A stretch of DNA of 64,000 nucleotides from Streptomyces sp. TN58 (GTDB lineage Bacteria; Actinomycetota; Actinomycetes; Streptomycetales; Streptomycetaceae). Of the stretch, positions 13,910 through 34,120 are shown in pieces (the stretch's first letter is position 1; each line of letters starts with the position of its first letter). Below the pieces are notes generated by a model. It was not told the DNA's origin. It searched no databases and saw nothing but the letters and a program-made list of their open reading frames with translations. The translations under genes and the position numbers were made by a program. The stretch covers positions 744,001-808,000 of the forward strand of contig NZ_CP018870.1 of assembly GCF_001941845.1 (NCBI RefSeq). The letters run 5' to 3'.

Positions 13910-14710
13910 ATGTCCCCGACCCCGACCCGCACCCGTCGTCGTACCGTCGTCTCCGCGGCCGCCCTGTCCGCCGCCCTGCTCGCCGGGCTGACCGCCTGCG
14001 GAGGGGGCGAGGAGCCCGCCGCGCCGTCGGCCTCCGGCGCGCCACCGGCGAACCTCACCGTCCTGGCCGCCTCCTCCCTGACCGACGTCTTCAGGACGGC
14101 GGGGGCCGCGTACGAGAAGGCCCACCCCGGTACGAAGGTCACCTTCTCCTTCGCCGGTTCGCAGGAGCTCGCGGCGCAGGTCAAGCAGGGTGCCCCGGCC
14201 GACGCACTGGTCACCGCCGACACCAGGACCATGGACGGGCTGAGGGCCGAGACCGGCGAGCCCAGGGTCGTCGCGAAGAACCGCCTGGTCATCGCGACCG
14301 GCAAGGGCAACCCCTTCAAGGTCGACGAGCTGAAGGACCTCGCCGATCCCGGACTCAAGGTCGTGCTCGCCGCGCCCGAGGTACCGGTCGGCCGCTACAG
14401 CAGGCAGATCCTCGACGCCCAGAAGGTGGCGGTGAAGCCGGTCTCCCAGGAGCCCAGCGTCCGCGCCGTCCTGGGCAAGGTCGAGATGGGCGAGGCCGAC
14501 GCCGGCCTCGTCTACCGGACGGACGCCGCCAGGTCGGGCGGCAAGGTCGTCACCGTGGAGATCCCGGACGGGCAGAACGCCGTGGCCTCCTACCCCGCCG
14601 CCACGCTGAGGCACTCCCGGAACGCCGGGGCCGCCGCCGCGTTCACGGCGTGGCTGAGCGGCCCCGAGGCACAGAAGATCTTCCAGGAGGCGGGTTTCCA
14701 GCAGCCGTAG
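13910..14710 (+). CDS. modA: Molybdate ABC transporter substrate-binding lipoprotein
   Basis: A 266-residue exported lipoprotein. The signal peptide ends with the lipobox LTAC (Cys about residue 28), then a Pro/Ala-rich linker. The mature part has the ModA pattern: [13 protein letters not shown] near the start, [22 protein letters not shown], and VYRTDA near the end. It should capture molybdate outside the membrane for ModBC. GAGGAG precedes the ATG. Its stop codon touches the left end of the hairpin element at 14711, which separates it from modBC by 357 bases. Confidence 0.92.
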
Positions 14711-14884
14711 GGCGTGTTGCGAAAGTGGCGTCGTCCGCCCGCAGGGCGGTGCTCGCCGTGTCTGGTGCCGTGCCTCGCAAGGCGGAGGGTCGCCCGCGTA
14801 CCGGTCCGTGCGCGGGTAACCCCGACAACGCGGCGGGATGCCGTGCCAGGCACCGCCGGCCCGACGAGACTTGCGCAACACGCC
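14711..14884 (+). mobile_element. Long-hairpin intergenic element, copy A (MITE-like)
   Basis: Perfect 11-bp terminal inverted repeats, GGCGTGTTGCG at 14711-14721 and its complement at 14874-14884, with further pairing inside (AAAGTGGCGTCG against a GACGAGACTTG end). The core has GCAAGGCGGAGG at 14777-14788 and GACAACGCGGCG at 14824-14835 around a hairpin (CCCGCGTAC, loop CGGTCC, GTGCGCGGG) at 14793-14816. The same 12-mers at the same spacing occur in copy B. It lies inside the molybdate operon. No transposase is encoded and no target duplication is evident. Confidence 0.8.
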
Positions 14885-14953
14885 TTGGCCGGCGGGGCCT
14901 GCGCACCGGTCGGGTCCGTCGGTTCGGGGTGGAACGTCCCGCCCCGCATACGC

Positions 14954-14993
14954 TGCACCCCTGCACCCACCCATGCACCCACCCCTGCACCCC
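14954..14993 (+). repeat. C-rich 12-bp imperfect tandem repeat before modBC
   Basis: TGCACCC starts at 14954, 14962, 14974 and 14986; the units TGCACCCACCCA and TGCACCCACCCC are 12 bases long. The unit resembles TGCACGCATCCC at 5710. The rest of 14994-15056 is C-rich with no other signal until the ribosome site AGGAAG before the modBC start. Confidence 0.8.
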
Positions 14994-15067
14994 GCGCCCG
15001 TGCCCGCCCGCGTCCCCGCCGCCGGCCCCGCCCCGTCCGGCCACGCCCGCCCGAGCCAGGAAGTCCC

Positions 15068-17026
15068 GTGAGCAGACTCCGTACCCGCACCCGGCCCCCG
15101 GCGGCCCTGGCGCTCCCCGCGCTGCTCGCCGTCGCGTTCCTGCTGATGCCGCTTCTCGGGATCCTGGTACGCACTCCGTGGGGCGAGCTCGTGGAACACC
15201 TCGGCAGCCCAGGTGTGGTCCAGGCTCTGAAGCTCTCCCTCGTGGTGTCCCTGTGGGCGCTGGGCCTCTCGCTCCTCCTCGGCGTGCCCCTGGCCTGGCT
15301 GCTGGCCCGTGTGGACTTCAGGGGCAAGGCCCTGGTCCGCTCGCTGGTGCTGCTCCCCATGGTGCTGCCGCCGACCGTGGGCGGTGTCGCCCTCCTCCTC
15401 GGCTTCGGCCGGCGCGGTCTGCTGGGGCCGTGGCTGGAGGACGTCTTCGGGATCACCCTGCCGTTCCACACCTCGGGGGCCGTCGTCGCGGCGACCTTCG
15501 TCGCCATGCCGTTCCTGGTCATCAGTTTGGAAGGCGCCCTCGGCGGTCTCAGGCGGAGTTACGAGGAGACGGCGGCCTCGCTCGGCGCGTCGCCGGTCCG
15601 TGTGTTCGCCACCGTGACCCTGCCCATGGTGGCGCCCGGTCTGATCGCCGGAGCCGCCCTCACCTGGGCCCGCGCACTGGGTGAGTTCGGCGCGACCATC
15701 ACCTTCGCGGGAAACCTGCCCGGCACCACGCAGACCCTGCCGCTCCAGGTGTACCTGCTGCTCCAGGACCAGCCCGAGGCGGCCACCTCCGTCTCCCTGC
15801 TGCTGCTGGCGATCGCCATGGCCGTACTGATCGCACTGCGCGGCCGCTGGACGGGCACCCCGGCCGACCGCGGCGCGGTGACGGCGCCGCGGTCCGGCCG
15901 GGAGGACGGCCCGGACCCCGGGCGGATGGCCGGCCGGGAACCGGAAGCGGACGCGGCGGCCGCCGCACCGGCGCCGTCCGGGGAGACCGGGCACTGGCCG
16001 CTGCACGCCACCGTCACGGGCTTCGACCGCCTCACCCTCGAAGCGGAACCGGGCACCACCATCGCCGTCGTCGGCGAGAACGGGGCCGGCAAGACCACCC
16101 TGCTGCGCGCCCTGCTCGGCCTGACCCCGCGGGCCCACGCCGACCTGCGGCTTGGGGACACCGACGTCACCGCCCTGCCGCCGCACCAGCGGCAGGTGGC
16201 CTGGGTGCCCCAGGACGGGGCGCTGTTCCCGCACCTGAGCGCCCTGGCGAACACCTCGTACGGGCTGCGGGCCCGCCGGGTGCCGCGTGCCGACGCCCGC
16301 CGGGAGGCGCAGGCCTGGCTGGACCGGCTGGGCGTGGGCCACCTCGCCCGGCGCAGGCCCGCCCAGCTCTCCGGCGGCCAGGCCCAGCGGGTCGCGCTCG
16401 CGCGCGCCCTTGCGGCGCGCCCGCGGCTCCTGCTGCTGGACGAACCGCTCGCCGCCCTCGACCAGACCACGCGGGCCCGGGTCCGGCACACCCTGCGCAC
16501 GCACCTGGCCGGCTTCGGCGGGGTCTGCCTCATCGTCACCCACGACCCGGTCGAGGCGGTGTCCCTGGCGGACCGGGTCCTCGTACTGGCCGACGGCCGG
16601 GCCCTGCAGGACGCGCCGCCCGCCGAGGTCACCCGGCACCCGCGCTCCCCGTGGGTGGCCCGGATGCTGGGTCGCAACGCCTGGCCGGGCATCGCCGTCG
16701 CAGACGGCCTCGCCCTCGCGGGGGGCGGCCGCCTGGTGGTCGCCGAGACCCTGCCCGAGGGAGCCGAGGCCCTGGCGGTCGTCGCCCCGGAGGCGGTTTC
16801 GGTGCACCGGGACCGGCCGAGCGGCAGCCCCCGCAACGTGTGGCGGGGCACCGTCCGGGAGATCACCGCGGTGGGCAGCCGCCTGCGCGTGCTGATCGAG
16901 TCGCCCGACGCGCCCGAGCTGGTCGCCGAGATCACCCCGGCCGCGGCGGCCGAACTGGGCCTGGCCGACGGGTCCGAGGTCTGGACGAGCGTGAAGGCCA
17001 CCGAGGTCACCCTCGTCCGCCTGTAG
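15068..17026 (+). CDS. modBC: Molybdate ABC transporter, permease and ATPase fused in one chain
   Basis: A 652-residue fusion. Residues 1-260 are ModB: about five helices and the EAA loop (EETAASLGASPVRVFATVTLPMVAPG region, 166-195). A Pro/Ala-rich linker of about 45 residues follows. Residues 312-540 are the ModC ATPase: Walker A GENGAGKT (336-343), signature LSGGQ (434-438), Walker B LLLLDEP (454-460) and the switch His in VTHDP. Residues about 580-650 form a Mop/TOBE regulatory domain that ends the protein. The beginning of the ATPase is shortened by about 15 residues compared with stand-alone ModC. The GTG at 15068 follows AGGAAG. Such ModBC fusions are known in actinobacteria. Confidence 0.9.
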   Translation: MSRLRTRTRPPAALALPALLAVAFLLMPLLGILVRTPWGELVEHLGSPGVVQALKLSLVVSLWALGLSLLLGVPLAWLLARVDFRGKALVRSLVLLPMVLPPTVGGVALLLGFGRRGLLGPWLEDVFGITLPFHTSGAVVAATFVAMPFLVISLEGALGGLRRSYEETAASLGASPVRVFATVTLPMVAPGLIAGAALTWARALGEFGATITFAGNLPGTTQTLPLQVYLLLQDQPEAATSVSLLLLAIAMAVLIALRGRWTGTPADRGAVTAPRSGREDGPDPGRMAGREPEADAAAAAPAPSGETGHWPLHATVTGFDRLTLEAEPGTTIAVVGENGAGKTTLLRALLGLTPRAHADLRLGDTDVTALPPHQRQVAWVPQDGALFPHLSALANTSYGLRARRVPRADARREAQAWLDRLGVGHLARRRPAQLSGGQAQRVALARALAARPRLLLLDEPLAALDQTTRARVRHTLRTHLAGFGGVCLIVTHDPVEAVSLADRVLVLADGRALQDAPPAEVTRHPRSPWVARMLGRNAWPGIAVADGLALAGGGRLVVAETLPEGAEALAVVAPEAVSVHRDRPSGSPRNVWRGTVREITAVGSRLRVLIESPDAPELVAEITPAAAAELGLADGSEVWTSVKATEVTLVRL

Positions 17027-17100
17027 TCCCGCCGGGCGGGTGGGCCGGACTCCGTGTGCGCGACCTGGCGGGCGGCCAGGACCGGCCCCGGCGCGTGAAG

Positions 17101-19182
17101 TCAGGCCACGCCGTCGGGGCTCTCCGGCCGCGGCGGGGCGAATTCGCACCAGACGCACTTGCCGCCGCCGCGCGGTTCCACACCCCACGCGTCCGCGAGC
17201 TGTTCCACCAGCATCAGTCCGCGCCCCGACACCGCCCAGTCCCCCGCCTCGCGCCGCCGCGGCAGCGCGCTGCTGGTGTCCTCGACCTCGATCCGGATCC
17301 GCCCCTGGGGCGTGATCCGCATGTTGACGTGGCCGCCGCCGTCCGTGTGGACGAGGGCGTTGGTCATCAGCTCGTCCGCCGCCAGCTCGATCTCGTCGGC
17401 GCGGTCCTCGGCGCCCCAGGCCGCCACCGCCGCTCGGATGAGGTGGCGGGCCATGGCCGGACCCCGGGTGTCCCCCGGCTCCAGGCGCTGGCGCAGCGGG
17501 CCGCCGCCCCGCCCGGTGGGGTTGCCGCGGCGGCGCAGGACGAGCAGGGCCATGTCGTCGCCCCCGCCCGCGTCGCCGACGAGGTCGCACAGCACGTCGG
17601 CGAGCTCCTCGACGTCCGTGGGGCCGCTGTGGACCGCCGCCGTCAGCTCCCGCATGCCGGTGTCGGGATCGGCGCCGGGTCTTTCGACGAGGCCGTCCGT
17701 GCACAGCACCAGGGTGTCGCCCGGGTGCAGTTCCAGACTGGTGACCGGATAGCCGGAGCCCGCCGCCGCGGACGGTTCGGGAGGCGGCAGCCCGAGCGGC
17801 AGCCCGCCCGCCACCTGGACCCGGTGGCAGCTGCCGTCCCCGCGCCGCACGACCGGGTCGAGGTGCCCGGCGCGGACGATCTGGAGCATGCCGCTGTTGA
17901 GGTCGACCTCGGCGTACGTGCAGGTGGCGAAGCGCTCCGTCTCCAGTTCCCGCAGGAAGGCGGAGGCTCGGGCCATCGCCGCGCCCGGTGTGTGCCCCTC
18001 GACCACGTACGCCCGCATCACGATGCGCAGCTGCCCCATGACGGCGGCCGCGTCCGTGTCGTGGCCCTCGACGTCGCCGATCATCACCCCGACGCGGCCG
18101 CCGCCGAGCGGCACCACGTCGTACCAGTCCCCGCCGATGTCCCGCCCGATCCGGGCGGAGCGGTAGCGTACGGCGATCAGCGCTCCGGGCACCGCGGGGA
18201 TCCGGCGGGGCAGCATGGCCCGCTGGAGGCCCTCGGCCAGGTCGTGCTCCTGCTCGAAGAGGATGGCGCGCTGGAGGCTCTGGGCGACGCCGCTGCCGAG
18301 CGCCATGAGCAGGTTGCGTTCCTCGGCGGTGAAGTCGCCGTCCCGTTTGTAGAGCAGCCCCAGCGCTCCGACGGCCCGCCCCTGGGCGATCAGCGGCAGG
18401 TAGACGCCGCTGCGGACGGCCAGCGGCTCGATGTACGGCCACAGTTCGGGGTAGCCCTGCTGGAACTCCTCCCGCGAGAGGATGAAGACGGGCTGCATGG
18501 TGCGTACGGCCACACTCATCGGGAACTGCGCGTCGATCCGGGTGTACTCGATCTCGGGGACGTACGTGCCGAGCTGTCCCTCCGCGACGAGGTGGATGCG
18601 GCCTCCGTCGACGACGCCCAGCATCACGCTCACGGCGCCGAGGTGGCCGAGGGCCTGGGGGTCCTTGAGGATGTCGGTCACGTCGTTGACGGTGCGGGCG
18701 TGGGCGAGGATGGCGGTCGTCCGCTCGACGACGCCGGTCATCCGGCGGCGCCCCTCGTCCTGCTCGCCGGCGGCGCCCGGCTCGCCGGGGTCGTGGGCGG
18801 CGTCGCGGAGGATGCCGATGACGCGGTACGGGCGGCCGCCCGGGTCCCTCAGGATGTGGCCCTGGATGTGGGTCCAGGCGGGTGTGCCGTCGCGGCGGCG
18901 GCTGCGGACGTAGGCGCCGTAGTGGCTCCGCCCGTCCTTGATCGCCTGGGCGACCCTGGCGTCGAGCCGGGCCTCCTCGGCGGGCGCTATCCGCGCGCGG
19001 AGCCCGGCGGGGGTGCCGTCGTACTCGTCCGGGCGCAGGTCGAGCACGTCGAGGGCGGTGGGATCCAGGTGCATCCGCCCACTGTCGAGGTCCCAGTCGA
19101 AGGTGCCCATCCGGTTGAGCGCAAGGCTCGTGTCCGGCCGCGCGGGCCAGTCGACCTCGGGAACGTCTCCCCTACGGGCCAT
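17101..19182 (-). CDS. PAS-GAF-SpoIIE phosphatase-HATPase regulator
   Basis: A 693-residue regulator. A PAS domain (about 20-125, MGTFDWDLDSG) is followed by a GAF domain (about 150-310), a PP2C/SpoIIE phosphatase (about 330-530, GGDWYD and MIGDVEGHDTDAA), and an RsbW-like ATPase (about 560-680, DELMTNALVH and GRGLMLVEQLADAWG). It is the second protein of this class in the window, built with a different sensor set. It is convergent with modBC (74 bases apart). No cognate STAS antagonist is encoded nearby, so its target is unknown. Confidence 0.9.
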   Translation of the reverse strand: MARRGDVPEVDWPARPDTSLALNRMGTFDWDLDSGRMHLDPTALDVLDLRPDEYDGTPAGLRARIAPAEEARLDARVAQAIKDGRSHYGAYVRSRRRDGTPAWTHIQGHILRDPGGRPYRVIGILRDAAHDPGEPGAAGEQDEGRRRMTGVVERTTAILAHARTVNDVTDILKDPQALGHLGAVSVMLGVVDGGRIHLVAEGQLGTYVPEIEYTRIDAQFPMSVAVRTMQPVFILSREEFQQGYPELWPYIEPLAVRSGVYLPLIAQGRAVGALGLLYKRDGDFTAEERNLLMALGSGVAQSLQRAILFEQEHDLAEGLQRAMLPRRIPAVPGALIAVRYRSARIGRDIGGDWYDVVPLGGGRVGVMIGDVEGHDTDAAAVMGQLRIVMRAYVVEGHTPGAAMARASAFLRELETERFATCTYAEVDLNSGMLQIVRAGHLDPVVRRGDGSCHRVQVAGGLPLGLPPPEPSAAAGSGYPVTSLELHPGDTLVLCTDGLVERPGADPDTGMRELTAAVHSGPTDVEELADVLCDLVGDAGGGDDMALLVLRRRGNPTGRGGGPLRQRLEPGDTRGPAMARHLIRAAVAAWGAEDRADEIELAADELMTNALVHTDGGGHVNMRITPQGRIRIEVEDTSSALPRRREAGDWAVSGRGLMLVEQLADAWGVEPRGGGKCVWCEFAPPRPESPDGVA

Positions 19183-19273
19183 GCAGCCAGGGTCTCACTG
19201 TCCCCCGCCGGTGTCCCCGTGGAGCGGCCGGCGGGGGCCCGGTCGGGGGTGGGGCCTGGGTGCGTACACAGCA

Positions 19274-19302
19274 CTGTGCGGCCCGTCGCGCGGGCCGCAC
19301 AG
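19274..19302 (-). terminator. Strong hairpin, terminator for the small secreted-peptide gene
   Basis: A perfect 12-bp stem, CTGTGCGGCCCG with CGGGCCGCACAG, around a 5-base loop, ten bases after the stop of the gene ending at 19313. There is no T-run, as is usual in Streptomyces. Confidence 0.6.
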
Positions 19303-19312
19303 CATGCCGGGG

Positions 19313-19540
19313 TCAGCAGCCCTTGCCGTGGCCTCCGCCACGGTAGTGGTCGTTGTCATTGTCGTGCCAGCCGTGGTGGTGGCCGCCCCTGTCGTGGTCC
19401 CAGCCGCCGCCGCTCACGTACGTGACGGACTGTGAGGGGGTCGCCGCCGAGGCGGTACCCGCGGCTCCCAGGGCGCCGCCTGCCATCAGAACGCCGATGG
19501 CGGACACCGCGAAGAGGCGCTTGACTCTCGTTGCTCGCAT
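19313..19540 (-). CDS. Small secreted His/Gly/Asp-rich peptide
   Basis: A 75-residue precursor. A classical signal peptide (residues 1-33: RVKR, a hydrophobic core, then TASA-A) would release a mature peptide of about 42 residues. This has eight His and seven Asp among many glycines (WDHDRGGHHHGWHDNDNDHYRG is the centre, in two clusters) and ends GHGKGC with a single C-terminal Cys. The composition suggests metal binding outside the cell or in the wall. No family is recognised; it is not a chaplin. AGAAGGG lies nine bases before the ATG, and a hairpin follows the gene. Confidence 0.75.
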   Translation of the reverse strand: MRATRVKRLFAVSAIGVLMAGGALGAAGTASAATPSQSVTYVSGGGWDHDRGGHHHGWHDNDNDHYRGGGHGKGC

Positions 19541-19898
19541 GGTTGAGAACCCTTCTCGTTGCTACGGCACGAAAATTTGTTCTTCCTCCTCAGGCGAGGG
19601 GTTTTCATGGCTGCACCTGCGGCCGTACAGATGTCATGAATGCGCGTCACCCCCGTCAACGCGGCCTCATCGGGCCACGGACCTTCGGGGCCGGTGCGAT
19701 ATGTCGCACGCCTCGCGCTCCGGCGTATCACCGCGGGTAAAGGGTTGCGATCCCGGCGGTCGCCGCAGTTACCTACGGATGATATTAGTCACCGCCTCGG
19801 CGATCGGCATCTCGGGCGGGTATGGAATGGGCCCGCGATTCACCGCATTTCCGGTGTAGCGGGCAACTATGCAGGGATCGGCTGGTCACCGCAACGGG
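19541..19898. other. Divergent non-coding region
   Basis: It holds the leader of the small secreted-peptide gene (minus strand) with an AT-rich patch at 19570-19585. On the plus strand there is a possible promoter, TTGCGA at 19745-19750, before the AlkD-like gene. A minus-strand frame of about 40 codons (MKTPRLRRKNKF...) starts at 19605 and overlaps the peptide gene, but has no support. No other signal is seen. Confidence 0.5.
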
Positions 19899-20069
19899 CC
19901 AAGGGCTGTCCCGTAAAGTCCTGGCGGATCAGTGCGCGGTGTCGGATGCGGTGCACCGCAAGGCGGAGGAGCGTCCTCGTACTGGGCGTATGCGGGCGCT
20001 TTGCGACAACGCGGCGAGGCGCCGTAGCCGGCGCCGCGCGCCCGCCGGGGAACACGGGACAGCCCTTGG
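19899..20069 (+). mobile_element. Long-hairpin intergenic element, copy B (MITE-like)
   Basis: Perfect 16-bp terminal inverted repeats: CCAAGGGCTGTCCCGT at 19899-19914 and its complement at 20054-20069. The core contains GCAAGGCGGAGG at 19958-19969 and GACAACGCGGCG at 20005-20016, 47 bases apart start to start, exactly as in copy A; from the second 12-mer to the right end is also 49 bases in both. The core hairpin AGCGTCCTCGTAC / GTATGCGGGCGCT has loop TGGGC. It ends 43 bases before the AlkD-like start codon, so it lies in that gene's leader. Confidence 0.8.
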
Positions 20070-20112
20070 GCTCACCGCCGCGCGTAGGGACAGCAGGAGA
20101 GATGAGGCCGGG

Positions 20113-20802
20113 ATGGCAGAGGTGACCGGGACGGCACTGGCCGACGTGATGGCCGAACTGGCCGGGCTGGAGGATCCGAAGGCCCGCGCCGTGAACGAGA
20201 AGCACGGCGACGACCACGGGGTGAACCTCGGAAAACTGCGTGCGGTCGCGAAACGGCTGAAGACGCAGCAGGAACTGGCGCGCGAACTCTGGGGCACGCA
20301 GGACACCGCGGCGAGGCTGCTGGCGCTCCTGATCTGCCGCCCGAAGGCTTTCGGGCGGGACGAGTTGGACGCCATGCTGCGCGGGGCGCGAGCGCCCAAG
20401 GTGCAGGACTGGCTCGTGAACTACGTGGTGAAGAAGAGCCCGCACGCGGAGGATCTGCGCCTGGCCTGGTCGGCCGACCCGGATCCGCTCGTCGCGAGCG
20501 CGGGCTGGGCGCTGACCACGGAGCGCGTGGCGAAGCGGCCGGAGGGCCTGGATCTGCCGGGGCTGCTCGACGTCGTGGAGGCGGAGATGAAGGACGCCCC
20601 GGATCGCCTGCAGTGGGCGATGAACCACTGCCTGGCGCAGATCGGCATCGAGCATCCGGAGCACCGCGCCCGCGCGGTCGCCGTCGGCGAGCGCCTGGAG
20701 GTGCTGAAGGACTATCCGACGTCCCCCGGCTGCACGTCCCCGTACGCCCCGGTCTGGATCGCCGAGATGGTCCGCCGCCGGTCGGCTCAGCCGGGGGCGT
20801 GA
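20113..20802 (+). CDS. DNA alkylation repair protein, AlkD-like HEAT-repeat glycosylase
   Basis: A 229-residue all-helical protein of the AlkD family of DNA glycosylases. The segments GVNLGKLRAVAKRLKTQQELARELWGT, DTAARLLALLI and DWLVNYVVKKSPHA match the HEAT-like repeats of AlkD, which removes 3-methyladenine and 7-methylguanine without base flipping. The ATG at 20113 is used; a weak AGGAGA lies 12 bases upstream. A hairpin element lies directly before the gene. It is the first of two alkylation-repair genes in the window (see the AlkB homolog at 61063). Confidence 0.85.
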   Translation: MAEVTGTALADVMAELAGLEDPKARAVNEKHGDDHGVNLGKLRAVAKRLKTQQELARELWGTQDTAARLLALLICRPKAFGRDELDAMLRGARAPKVQDWLVNYVVKKSPHAEDLRLAWSADPDPLVASAGWALTTERVAKRPEGLDLPGLLDVVEAEMKDAPDRLQWAMNHCLAQIGIEHPEHRARAVAVGERLEVLKDYPTSPGCTSPYAPVWIAEMVRRRSAQPGA

Positions 20803-32830: not shown

Positions 32831-34120
32831 TCAGAACCGTGCGTGCGCGGTGATGTCGGCCTCGAACTCGCCCGTCATCGCCGGGGTCACCGTGGGCCGG
32901 CACTGCCGGACGGCCTCCAGGTAGTCCCGCGTGGTCGCGCCGAGCCGGGCGGTCGCCGCGCCGCGCGCGCCCACCGCCTCCAGGTCCCGTTCGAAGGACA
33001 CCTGCGCCGCGATCCTCGCCGCGTGCTCGATGTCGGCGGGCGTGAACAGTTCGGTCGCCGCGACCAGGGCGCCGAGGTCGACGTCTGCGCGACCCTCCGT
33101 GTAGCGGGCCCATATCGCGGCGCGCGCCCCGGCGTCGGGGGTGCCGATCGGGATGAGGTAGTCGAAGCGCCCCGGGCGCAGGAAGGCCGGGTCGAGGGAG
33201 CGGATGGAGTTGGTGGCGCAGACGAGCAGCCGTTCACCGCCCTCCCGGAAGCCCGGTATCAGCTTGAGCAGTTCGTTGGTGACGCCGTGGATGCCGCCCG
33301 GCTGTGCGGGCTCGGTGCGCACGGGCGCGATCTCCTCCACCTCGTCGATGAAGACGAGTACGCGCTCCAGTTCCGCGATCCGGGCGAAGGCGTCGCGCAG
33401 CGCCGCGGCCAGGTTGCCCTCGTCGGCGAGGCGCGAGGGCAGCAGTTCGACGAAGGGCCAGCCGAGCCGGGAGGCGATGGCCCGCGCGAAGGTGGTCTTG
33501 CCGGTGCCGGGCGGGCCGAAGAGGGTGACGGCGCGTGGCGGCCGCACTCCGTGGGCGGCTGCCCGTTCGGGTTCGGCGAGCGGCAGCACCACGCGACGCT
33601 CGATGAGGTCCTTCTCCTTCTCCATGCCGGCGACCCCGGCCCACAGGCCGGTCGGCAGGAACCGGCCGCCGAGGTCGTCGAGGAGGCCGGCGGCCGGTCC
33701 GTGGAGCGGCTCGGTCTTCTCGAAGTAGGCGACGGCGGGCTGCCGGGTGTAGCCGGCGTTGAGCAGGCCCTCGCCGAGCAGGTCCTCCTCGGGAAGGACA
33801 TAGGCGATGCGGCCGACACGGGCGGCGATGAGCCGCCGTTCCAGCTCGACGAGCAGGGCGCTGGCCAAGCCCCGGCCGCGCCAGCCGGCGGCGATGGCGA
33901 TGCGCATGACCCAGGCGCGCTCGCCGGTGACGCAGGCGAGGGCCGCGCCGATGGGGACGCCCTGGTGGACGGCGACGACGCAGGGCTGCCGGCCGGTCAG
34001 TGCGCTGATGCACTCGGCGAGCGAGAAGACGGACTCCTGGCCGAGTTCGGCCGTGGTGTCGATCAGGTGGACCACCGCGGCGAGATCGCTCTCGCGGTAG
34101 TCGTGGATGAGCCAGTTCAC
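32831..34120 (-). CDS. GNAT acetyltransferase fused to an AAA+ ATPase
   Basis: A 429-residue fusion. Residues 1-140 are a GNAT domain; the acetyl-CoA loop is GWRGRGLASALL (79-90). Residues about 160-400 are a classical AAA domain: Walker A GPPGTGKT (202-209), Walker B LVFIDE (255-260), an ATNSIRSLDPAFLRPGRFD sensor/arginine-finger segment. It resembles the FtsH/Cdc48-type clade rather than MoxR. The GTG at 34120 follows GAGGGG. The two activities joined suggest ATP-driven handling of proteins plus acetylation, but no substrate is known. It is divergent from the glycosyltransferase gene, with the hairpin element C between. Confidence 0.88.
   Translation of the reverse strand: MNWLIHDYRESDLAAVVHLIDTTAELGQESVFSLAECISALTGRQPCVVAVHQGVPIGAALACVTGERAWVMRIAIAAGWRGRGLASALLVELERRLIAARVGRIAYVLPEEDLLGEGLLNAGYTRQPAVAYFEKTEPLHGPAAGLLDDLGGRFLPTGLWAGVAGMEKEKDLIERRVVLPLAEPERAAAHGVRPPRAVTLFGPPGTGKTTFARAIASRLGWPFVELLPSRLADEGNLAAALRDAFARIAELERVLVFIDEVEEIAPVRTEPAQPGGIHGVTNELLKLIPGFREGGERLLVCATNSIRSLDPAFLRPGRFDYLIPIGTPDAGARAAIWARYTEGRADVDLGALVAATELFTPADIEHAARIAAQVSFERDLEAVGARGAATARLGATTRDYLEAVRQCRPTVTPAMTGEFEADITAHARF

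Follow-up and report, generated by a model that had tools for sequence, protein, structure and literature searches.

Two short elements lie between genes in a 64,000-nt stretch of the Streptomyces sp. TN58 genome (NZ_CP018870.1, positions 744,001 to 808,000), referred to here as the window. They have one core sequence in common, and their terminal inverted repeats differ. Comparisons of sequence and predicted fold suggest that these elements, copies A and B, are probably miniature nonautonomous transposons of a widespread family in which exchangeable ends surround a constant core.

Copies A and B and their neighbors

Copy A occupies positions 14711 to 14884 of the forward strand and has ends of type I (GGCGTGTTGCG...CGCAACACGCC). 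Its core consists of a 5′ half (GCAAGGCGGAGG, 14777 to 14788) and a 3′ half (GACAACGCGGCG, 14824 to 14835), with a sequence-variable apical hairpin between them (14789 to 14823). Copy B, on the same strand, runs from 19903 to 20065 and has ends of type II (GGGCTGTCCCGT...ACGGGACAGCCC); its core halves lie at 19958 to 19969 and 20005 to 20016, on either side of an equally variable apical hairpin (19970 to 20004). Sequence, fold, and a match to a covariance model of the family, R2, all support both assignments. An earlier note on this DNA had described the pair and had given the limits of copy B as 19899 and 20069. Those limits take in four bases of flanking DNA at either end, the left target flank CCAA (19899 to 19902) and its counterpart TTGG (20066 to 20069), and the element proper is 19903 to 20065. 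Provided that B ends at 20065, the 49 bases that the note counted between the second 12-mer and the right end are found in both copies, measured from the last base of the 12-mer to the last base of the repeat. The 47-base spacing of the two 12-mers is likewise common to both (starts at 14777 and 14824 in A, at 19958 and 20005 in B), and the terminal repeats, different as they are, are each perfect, GGCGTGTTGCG over 11 bases and GGGCTGTCCCGT over 12.

A comparable pair of 12-mers occurred in none of 100 shuffled windows, and both copies folded more stably than their shuffles (z of −4.2 for A and −8.95 for B). When the window was scanned with R2, A and B were the two strong matches. A weak third match, at 33921 to 33995 (E = 0.0021), is probably due to chance or a very old relic.

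As the note had it, copy A sits among mod genes. The modA-like gene for a solute-binding protein (13910 to 14710, forward strand) ends with a stop codon that abuts the element; on the other side lies a modB-modC fusion (15068 to 17026, forward strand) whose single chain of 652 residues combines permease, ATPase, and TOBE domains. Copy B is found just 5′ of an AlkD-like (DNA_alkylation) gene, again in agreement with the note (20113 to 20802, forward strand). The comparison with empty sites that the note had called for gave a clear result for A: all five relatives examined lack the element there, with 88 to 196 bp from the end of the modA-like gene to the modB-like match, compared to 357 bp in the window. 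These relatives (L443 to L447) have a short hairpin between modA and modB, at the position of copy A.

Many copies and many end types in one genome

A search of the TN58 genome (7.585 Mb, one contig) for the two 12-mers at their set spacing found 27 exact copies, and the reversed-pattern control found none. With a shorter motif (AAGGCGGAGG...GACAACGC) the number rose to 42, again with no control matches. R2 returned 69 matches at E ≤ 1e-4, A and B among them, of which 40 retain the exact 11+9-base motif. Some copies are near-identical and recent. About nine end types could be grouped by eye among the 69: I (GGCGTGTTGCGAAAGT, copy A), II (GGGCTGTCCCGTAAT, copy B), III (TGCTGTGGCCGGAAAGG), IV (GGGGTGTCGTCGAAGT), V (GCCGTGTCTGACAAAT), VI (GGGGTGTCCGGCGGATCA), VII (GTCCTGTCTGGAGTTC), VIII (GCCGTCTCTTCCGGATC), and IX (GGGGTGTCTCGCCGATCA); end-finding returned no ends for 5 of these matches and implausible ends for several. 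The earlier note had allowed that a genome search might yield only these two copies, or that the core might prove to be part of one transposon with fixed ends; there are many more copies, and their ends are of many types.

Certain arrangements deserve comment. At 2867700 to 2868700 of the genome (L461), three members and a truncated fourth adjoin one another within about 700 bp and have differing end types; elements seem to insert beside each other at CTAG-like sites. Near 6825875 (L062), a single core has ends of two types, III on the left and I on the right, next to an IS5-family transposon, implying that arms are able to recombine. Mirrored copies at 166848 to 175429 and 7409606 to 7418187 show that inverted repeats, about 175 kb long at the least, occupy the chromosome ends, which implies a linear chromosome.

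A core found in two phyla

Exact 12-mer pairs were present in 10 of 61 genomes, all of them from the genus of TN58 (37 genomes, TN58 included), and in none of the 24 genomes outside it. A scan with one genome per species gave at least 118 stretches. Among the 80 matches listed, most were from Streptomyces, and the others included Kitasatospora, Actinacidiphila, Nocardioides, Actinocatenispora, Sphaerimonospora, Microtetraspora, and Leucobacter, together with a Bifidobacteriaceae metagenome-assembled genome (MAG) and an Oscillospiraceae MAG (G061). The shorter motif was found in 10 of 296 Actinomycetota genomes, three of which (G404, G477, and G563) lacked a stem and were taken as chance matches; G654, an actinomycete genome of another family, has 10 copies. 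Plasmid records with matches were from Streptomyces in 31 of 31 cases for A and 47 of 48 for B.

G061 belongs to the Firmicutes and has 23 copies (reversed control, 0), embedded in DNA of 35 to 41% G+C. In its phylum the strict pattern was found in 1 of 299 genomes, G061 itself, and R2 matched 17 of 398 at E ≤ 1e-4, or about 16 once G688 is removed; these R2 counts are lower bounds, with 11 candidates scored per genome under strict filters. The G688 match (L389, E = 4.1e-6) looks like coding DNA and by eye resembles L351, a tsaD-like coding stretch that mimics the core and passes weak thresholds. Viral contigs yielded no exact pattern and 50 shorter ones, among which L297, L324, and L333 pass R2 at E < 1e-6 with a stem; the remainder are weaker or chance-like. 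When the Firmicute core was compared by BLAST with plasmids, only Streptomyces records among the best 60 of 175 reached E < 0.01, and with phages the best 20 of 140 all had an E of 8. Between the two phyla the core is retained, and arms, ends, and base composition are wholly different.

Many Firmicutes members (L374 to L402) seem to have a second internal loop lower in the arms, as where CGAGGA faces AACCG. In some of them (L380, L385, and L400) the left arm contains TATAAT toward the core, a possible promoter that was not seen in other end types.

Paired changes and strand-specific folding of the core

The proposed fold would have an outer stem closed by a C-G pair, a loop with AAG on one side and a single free base on the other, three G/C pairs, and GA facing GA beside a CAA bulge, followed by an apical hairpin free in sequence. 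The GA/GA step presumably forms sheared pairs. In 37 diverse sequences, both sides had changed at 10 of the 11 outer-stem pairs. Outer-stem cells were paired in 95.9% of cases, compared to 74.6% after shuffling, and the covariation score was 0.552, against 0.158 for shuffled and at most 0.239 for slid alignments. The closing C-G, the GCG/CGC pairs, and the G-C above GA did not vary in these sequences, in part because members were found by that very motif; in L388, A-T takes the place of the G-C above GA. Further in, 155 elements have 128 different inner sequences, and the stems vary pairwise. The family thus displays compensatory changes in a conserved fold, a feature of structured RNAs. A coding core was rejected: no reading frame survives inner lengths that range from 29 to 40 bases, and both sides of the stems change together.

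Counts of mismatches point to one strand. Tallied by position with no energy model, the inner arms of 254 elements contain 654 G·T and 32 A·C, the terminal 18 bp of 166 elements 139 and 43, and 18 nonredundant Firmicutes or viral members 21 and 2. The motif strand outfolds its complement in 105 of 106 cases, with means of −45.0 and −33.1 kcal/mol. Together, compensatory change and strand-specific pairing support the second of the note's two readings of the differing ends, that the hairpin itself is under selection.

Searches of Rfam gave nothing relevant for 14400 to 20400 of the window up to an E of 5 or for five loci up to an E of 1. We rejected a standard kink-turn, since the CAA bulge lies on the wrong side of GA. 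One strand appears to bear a short resemblance to the twister-sister ribozyme.

To see the core in relatives chosen without it, we used 33 relatives found by BLAST with copy A. Identity in this unbiased set was 0.903 for the 12-mers, 0.801 for the arms, and 0.719 for the inner hairpin. In 6 of the 33 (L435, L438, L439, L440, L452, and L459, from four genomes) GA/GA has given way to CC opposite GG, and these positions form Watson-Crick pairs instead; in 3 (L423, L431, and L433) the change is one-sided. L436 and L437, near-identical and from one genome, and L456 have kept the arms and apical loop and lost the core. Among the 69 matches in TN58, GA/GA is intact in 58, AAG in 56, and CAA in 61.

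Insertion and possible partner transposons

The elements are about 150 to 200 bp long and gene free, have many copies, and carry paired inverted ends in most of the 69 TN58 matches; in these respects they are miniature inverted-repeat transposable elements (MITEs). The figure of 130 of 132 core-bearing loci is uninformative on MITEs at large, since the loci had been picked for the core. In G061, an identical 3-bp TNA (TTA, TAA, TCA, or TGA) stands on both sides, outside the end TACTAATCTCAA, in 20 of 20 copies, counted by eye where both flanks could be read (one copy without a left flank and one duplicate were excluded). L246 is inserted within an older relative, and L239, L251, and L256 show that site without the interruption. 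In Streptomyces the ends often adjoin CTAG or a one-base variant (CCAG or CTGG), in counts biased by an end-finding procedure that favors CTAG-like flanks. A 227-bp element with CTAG flanks and no core was also noticed (L084, 2300 to 2526). The target duplication rules out a REP/RAYT element; RAYT genes were not searched for.

Transposons with CTAG flanks and ends of similar style were found among PF13340 loci of TN58 and ten other genomes. Two end matches join a MITE and a transposon inside one genome: copy L490 of TN58 has 16 terminal bases at each end in common with the TN58 transposons L063 to L067, and in G071 the MITE L099 has 15 bp in common with transposon L275. The ends of L146 match L275 over 18 bp, those of L028, L089, and L117 match L292 or L056 over 14 bp, and the TN58 transposon L058 has 14 bp in common with L138 and 12 bp with the TN58 copy L016. 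Five of six transposons (L063, L058, L275, L276, and L263) pass the NF033580 cutoff for the IS5 family, and L272 falls below it; we count L490, L099, L146, L028/L089/L117, L138, and L016 as MITEs with IS5-family ends. The similarity stops at the ends; with different sequences farther in, the MITEs are not simple deletion products of these transposons. Core-bearing MITEs directly adjoin transposons L059, L062, and L263. None of the 54 PF13340 loci scanned has a core within an autonomous transposon, and the clear cores in those loci lie outside the transposons.

Distinct end types thus match distinct IS5-family transposons, in keeping with the note's first reading, that different transposases are involved. 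From these terminal matches it seems that elements with different ends are probably moved by different transposases, and mobilization in trans by an IS5-type enzyme would account for them.

Orientation relative to genes and replication

Relative to flanking genes, as called by a simple custom gene caller, 141 copies could be placed and four further ones could not: 38 were sense, 39 antisense, 48 convergent, 12 divergent, and 4 inside genes. The TN58 subset (33 placed of 37 loci tried) comprised 15 sense, 5 antisense, 12 convergent, and 1 divergent; its sense bias of 15 to 5 means that TN58 itself may differ.

The orientation relative to replication was less even. With dnaA at 3.947 Mb, 44 TN58 copies are head-on and 22 co-oriented (P = 0.009; 66 counted, excluding three mirrored duplicates at the chromosome ends). 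In G654, whose contig begins at dnaA, the numbers are 9 and 1, giving 53 to 23 for the two genomes combined (P = 8e-4). With the midpoint taken as the origin, head-on copies prevail by 21 to 13 in G012 (a dnaA gene was sought without success from 4.40 to 4.74 Mb), by 6 to 0 on contig C2 of G004 (five copies on C1 excluded), and by 7 to 2 in G071, with two close to the midpoint. Pooling gives 87 head-on and 38 co-oriented copies (P = 1.4e-5); under an alternative origin for G012 the numbers become 84 and 41. Outside the pool, single copies in five further genomes stand at 5 to 1 and four BLAST-found copies in G025 at 3 to 1. It should be noted that this test was selected after 27 TN58 copies and G012 had shown the same lean. 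By the sign of the bias, the leading-strand template is in most cases the motif strand. Hairpins might be lost from the lagging-strand template, or insertion might be oriented; either could produce the bias.

Discussion

Both of the explanations offered in the earlier note, different transposases and selection on the hairpin, find support, and they find it together. We consider it likely that the ends determine which IS5-type transposase can mobilize an element in trans and that the core is retained since one strand must fold. The folded strand would act in cis, in the spread or survival of the element that contains it, and arm-to-arm copying through the hairpin would suffice for the joint change of both ends. 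One can envision that the fold does its work in single-stranded DNA, in connection with replication, a suggestion that we hold to be evenly balanced between right and wrong; single-stranded DNA is favored over RNA because orientation follows replication. More broadly, and tentatively, with slightly more doubt than belief, we propose that the constant part of a superfamily of miniature transposons spanning phyla, and the part under selection, is a single-strand-folding motif not described before. It would allow changes of end and of transposase and have one replication-tied function in cis, and the core, rather than the ends, would define the lineage.

Several observations weigh against the explanation preferred here. 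Shared ancestry makes the G·T, covariation, and strand counts nonindependent, and part of the invariance in alignments A1 and A2 is built in, because their members were collected with the motif itself. Among the 33 relatives chosen without it, identity of the 12-mers exceeds that of the arms only moderately (0.903 and 0.801). Core-less relatives exist in multiple copies, so the core is not strictly necessary for multiplication; within TN58, 11 of 69 copies have an uncompensated one-sided break of GA/GA, 13 lack AAG, and 8 lack CAA. The head-on bias in G012 shrinks to 18 to 16 if the origin is put at 4.8 Mb, and by hand count the Firmicute genomes G277 and G749 give 2 to 2 and 1 to 1, with the contig start assumed to be the origin. 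Finally, end types I and II, those of copies A and B, have no close partner among the PF13340 (24 places) and PF13359 (5 weak) loci of TN58, other transposase families not having been searched; the best partner for type I is L058, with 12 of 16 bases.

What kind of molecule folds is a separate question. The core could instead be a structured RNA made from the element, such as a protein-binding motif, a ribozyme, or a small RNA, with selection on the RNA; we consider this a real possibility, if a rather doubtful one. The excess of G·T over A·C on one strand, the compensatory change, and the fixed unpaired bases are as such an RNA would have them, and a MITE review mentions small RNAs from MITEs of another bacterium (PMC10969869). 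It sits less well with the lack of bias toward flanking genes over all placed copies (38 sense and 39 antisense), though the TN58 subset is at 15 to 5, and with the absence of an Rfam match.

It is also conceivable that these are ordinary IS5-type MITEs in which the core is common through descent and transfer only and has no function. Core-less variants multiply, many TN58 copies have decayed cores, and some copies are recent and near-identical, all as this would predict. We nevertheless think it unlikely, because the core stays across phyla in which arms, ends, and base composition differ wholly, and because stems vary pairwise and G·T exceeds A·C in separate lineages. Less likely again, and to our minds improbable, is that the mismatched core merely prevents a perfect palindrome, which cells destroy, so that any mismatch would serve. 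The elements are indeed near-palindromic, and loss of hairpins from the lagging-strand template could yield the head-on bias; recurrence of the same unpaired bases across phyla and G·T in place of A·C would be left unexplained. Immobile host hairpins such as terminators, suggested by the intergenic location of A and B and by the short hairpin that relatives have between modA and modB, are refuted as a full account by the target duplications in G061, the element-free site A, the many end types, and the 69 scattered copies, and we regard them as highly improbable.

If the core is selected as we propose, its general interest lies in an interior that outlives its ends: the ends turn over, and an asymmetric, one-strand core persists from Streptomyces-like genomes to AT-rich Firmicutes. 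Such persistence points to a general function inside nonautonomous elements. In practical terms, a covariance model is now available to find and annotate a repeat family that has dozens of copies in some actinobacteria. Literature searches on the 12-mers, MITEs, Streptomyces, IS5, and structure found no description of the core, in a coverage that mostly leaves out subscription journals, and the term "actino" does not occur in the available part of the MITE review (PMC10969869).

How does this family compare with known systems? Similar to IS5-family MITEs, its members are short and gene free, with paired inverted ends, a CTAG or TNA target, and ends that match transposons. They differ in that the interior is no transposon remnant and in that one folded core lies under many end types in two phyla. 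MITEs are usually regarded as decayed copies of one transposon. In Correia/NEMIS elements, the whole element can form a single long hairpin, and it is the complete element whose folding has been described. REP elements, which are associated with RAYT (Y1) transposases, are strand-specific folded repeats found between genes in many copies; the present family differs from them by its paired inverted ends and 3-bp target duplication. Candidate structured RNAs from comparative genomics (PMC2864571) also show compensatory change and fixed unpaired bases; here, no Rfam family matches, and the motif is carried by a transposable element. QMITE2 of Coxiella, in the part of the review that treats it (PMC10969869), can likewise fold as a whole into one long hairpin. 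For QMITE2 the fold is described for the entire element, whereas the family described here has a fixed asymmetric internal loop under unrelated ends.

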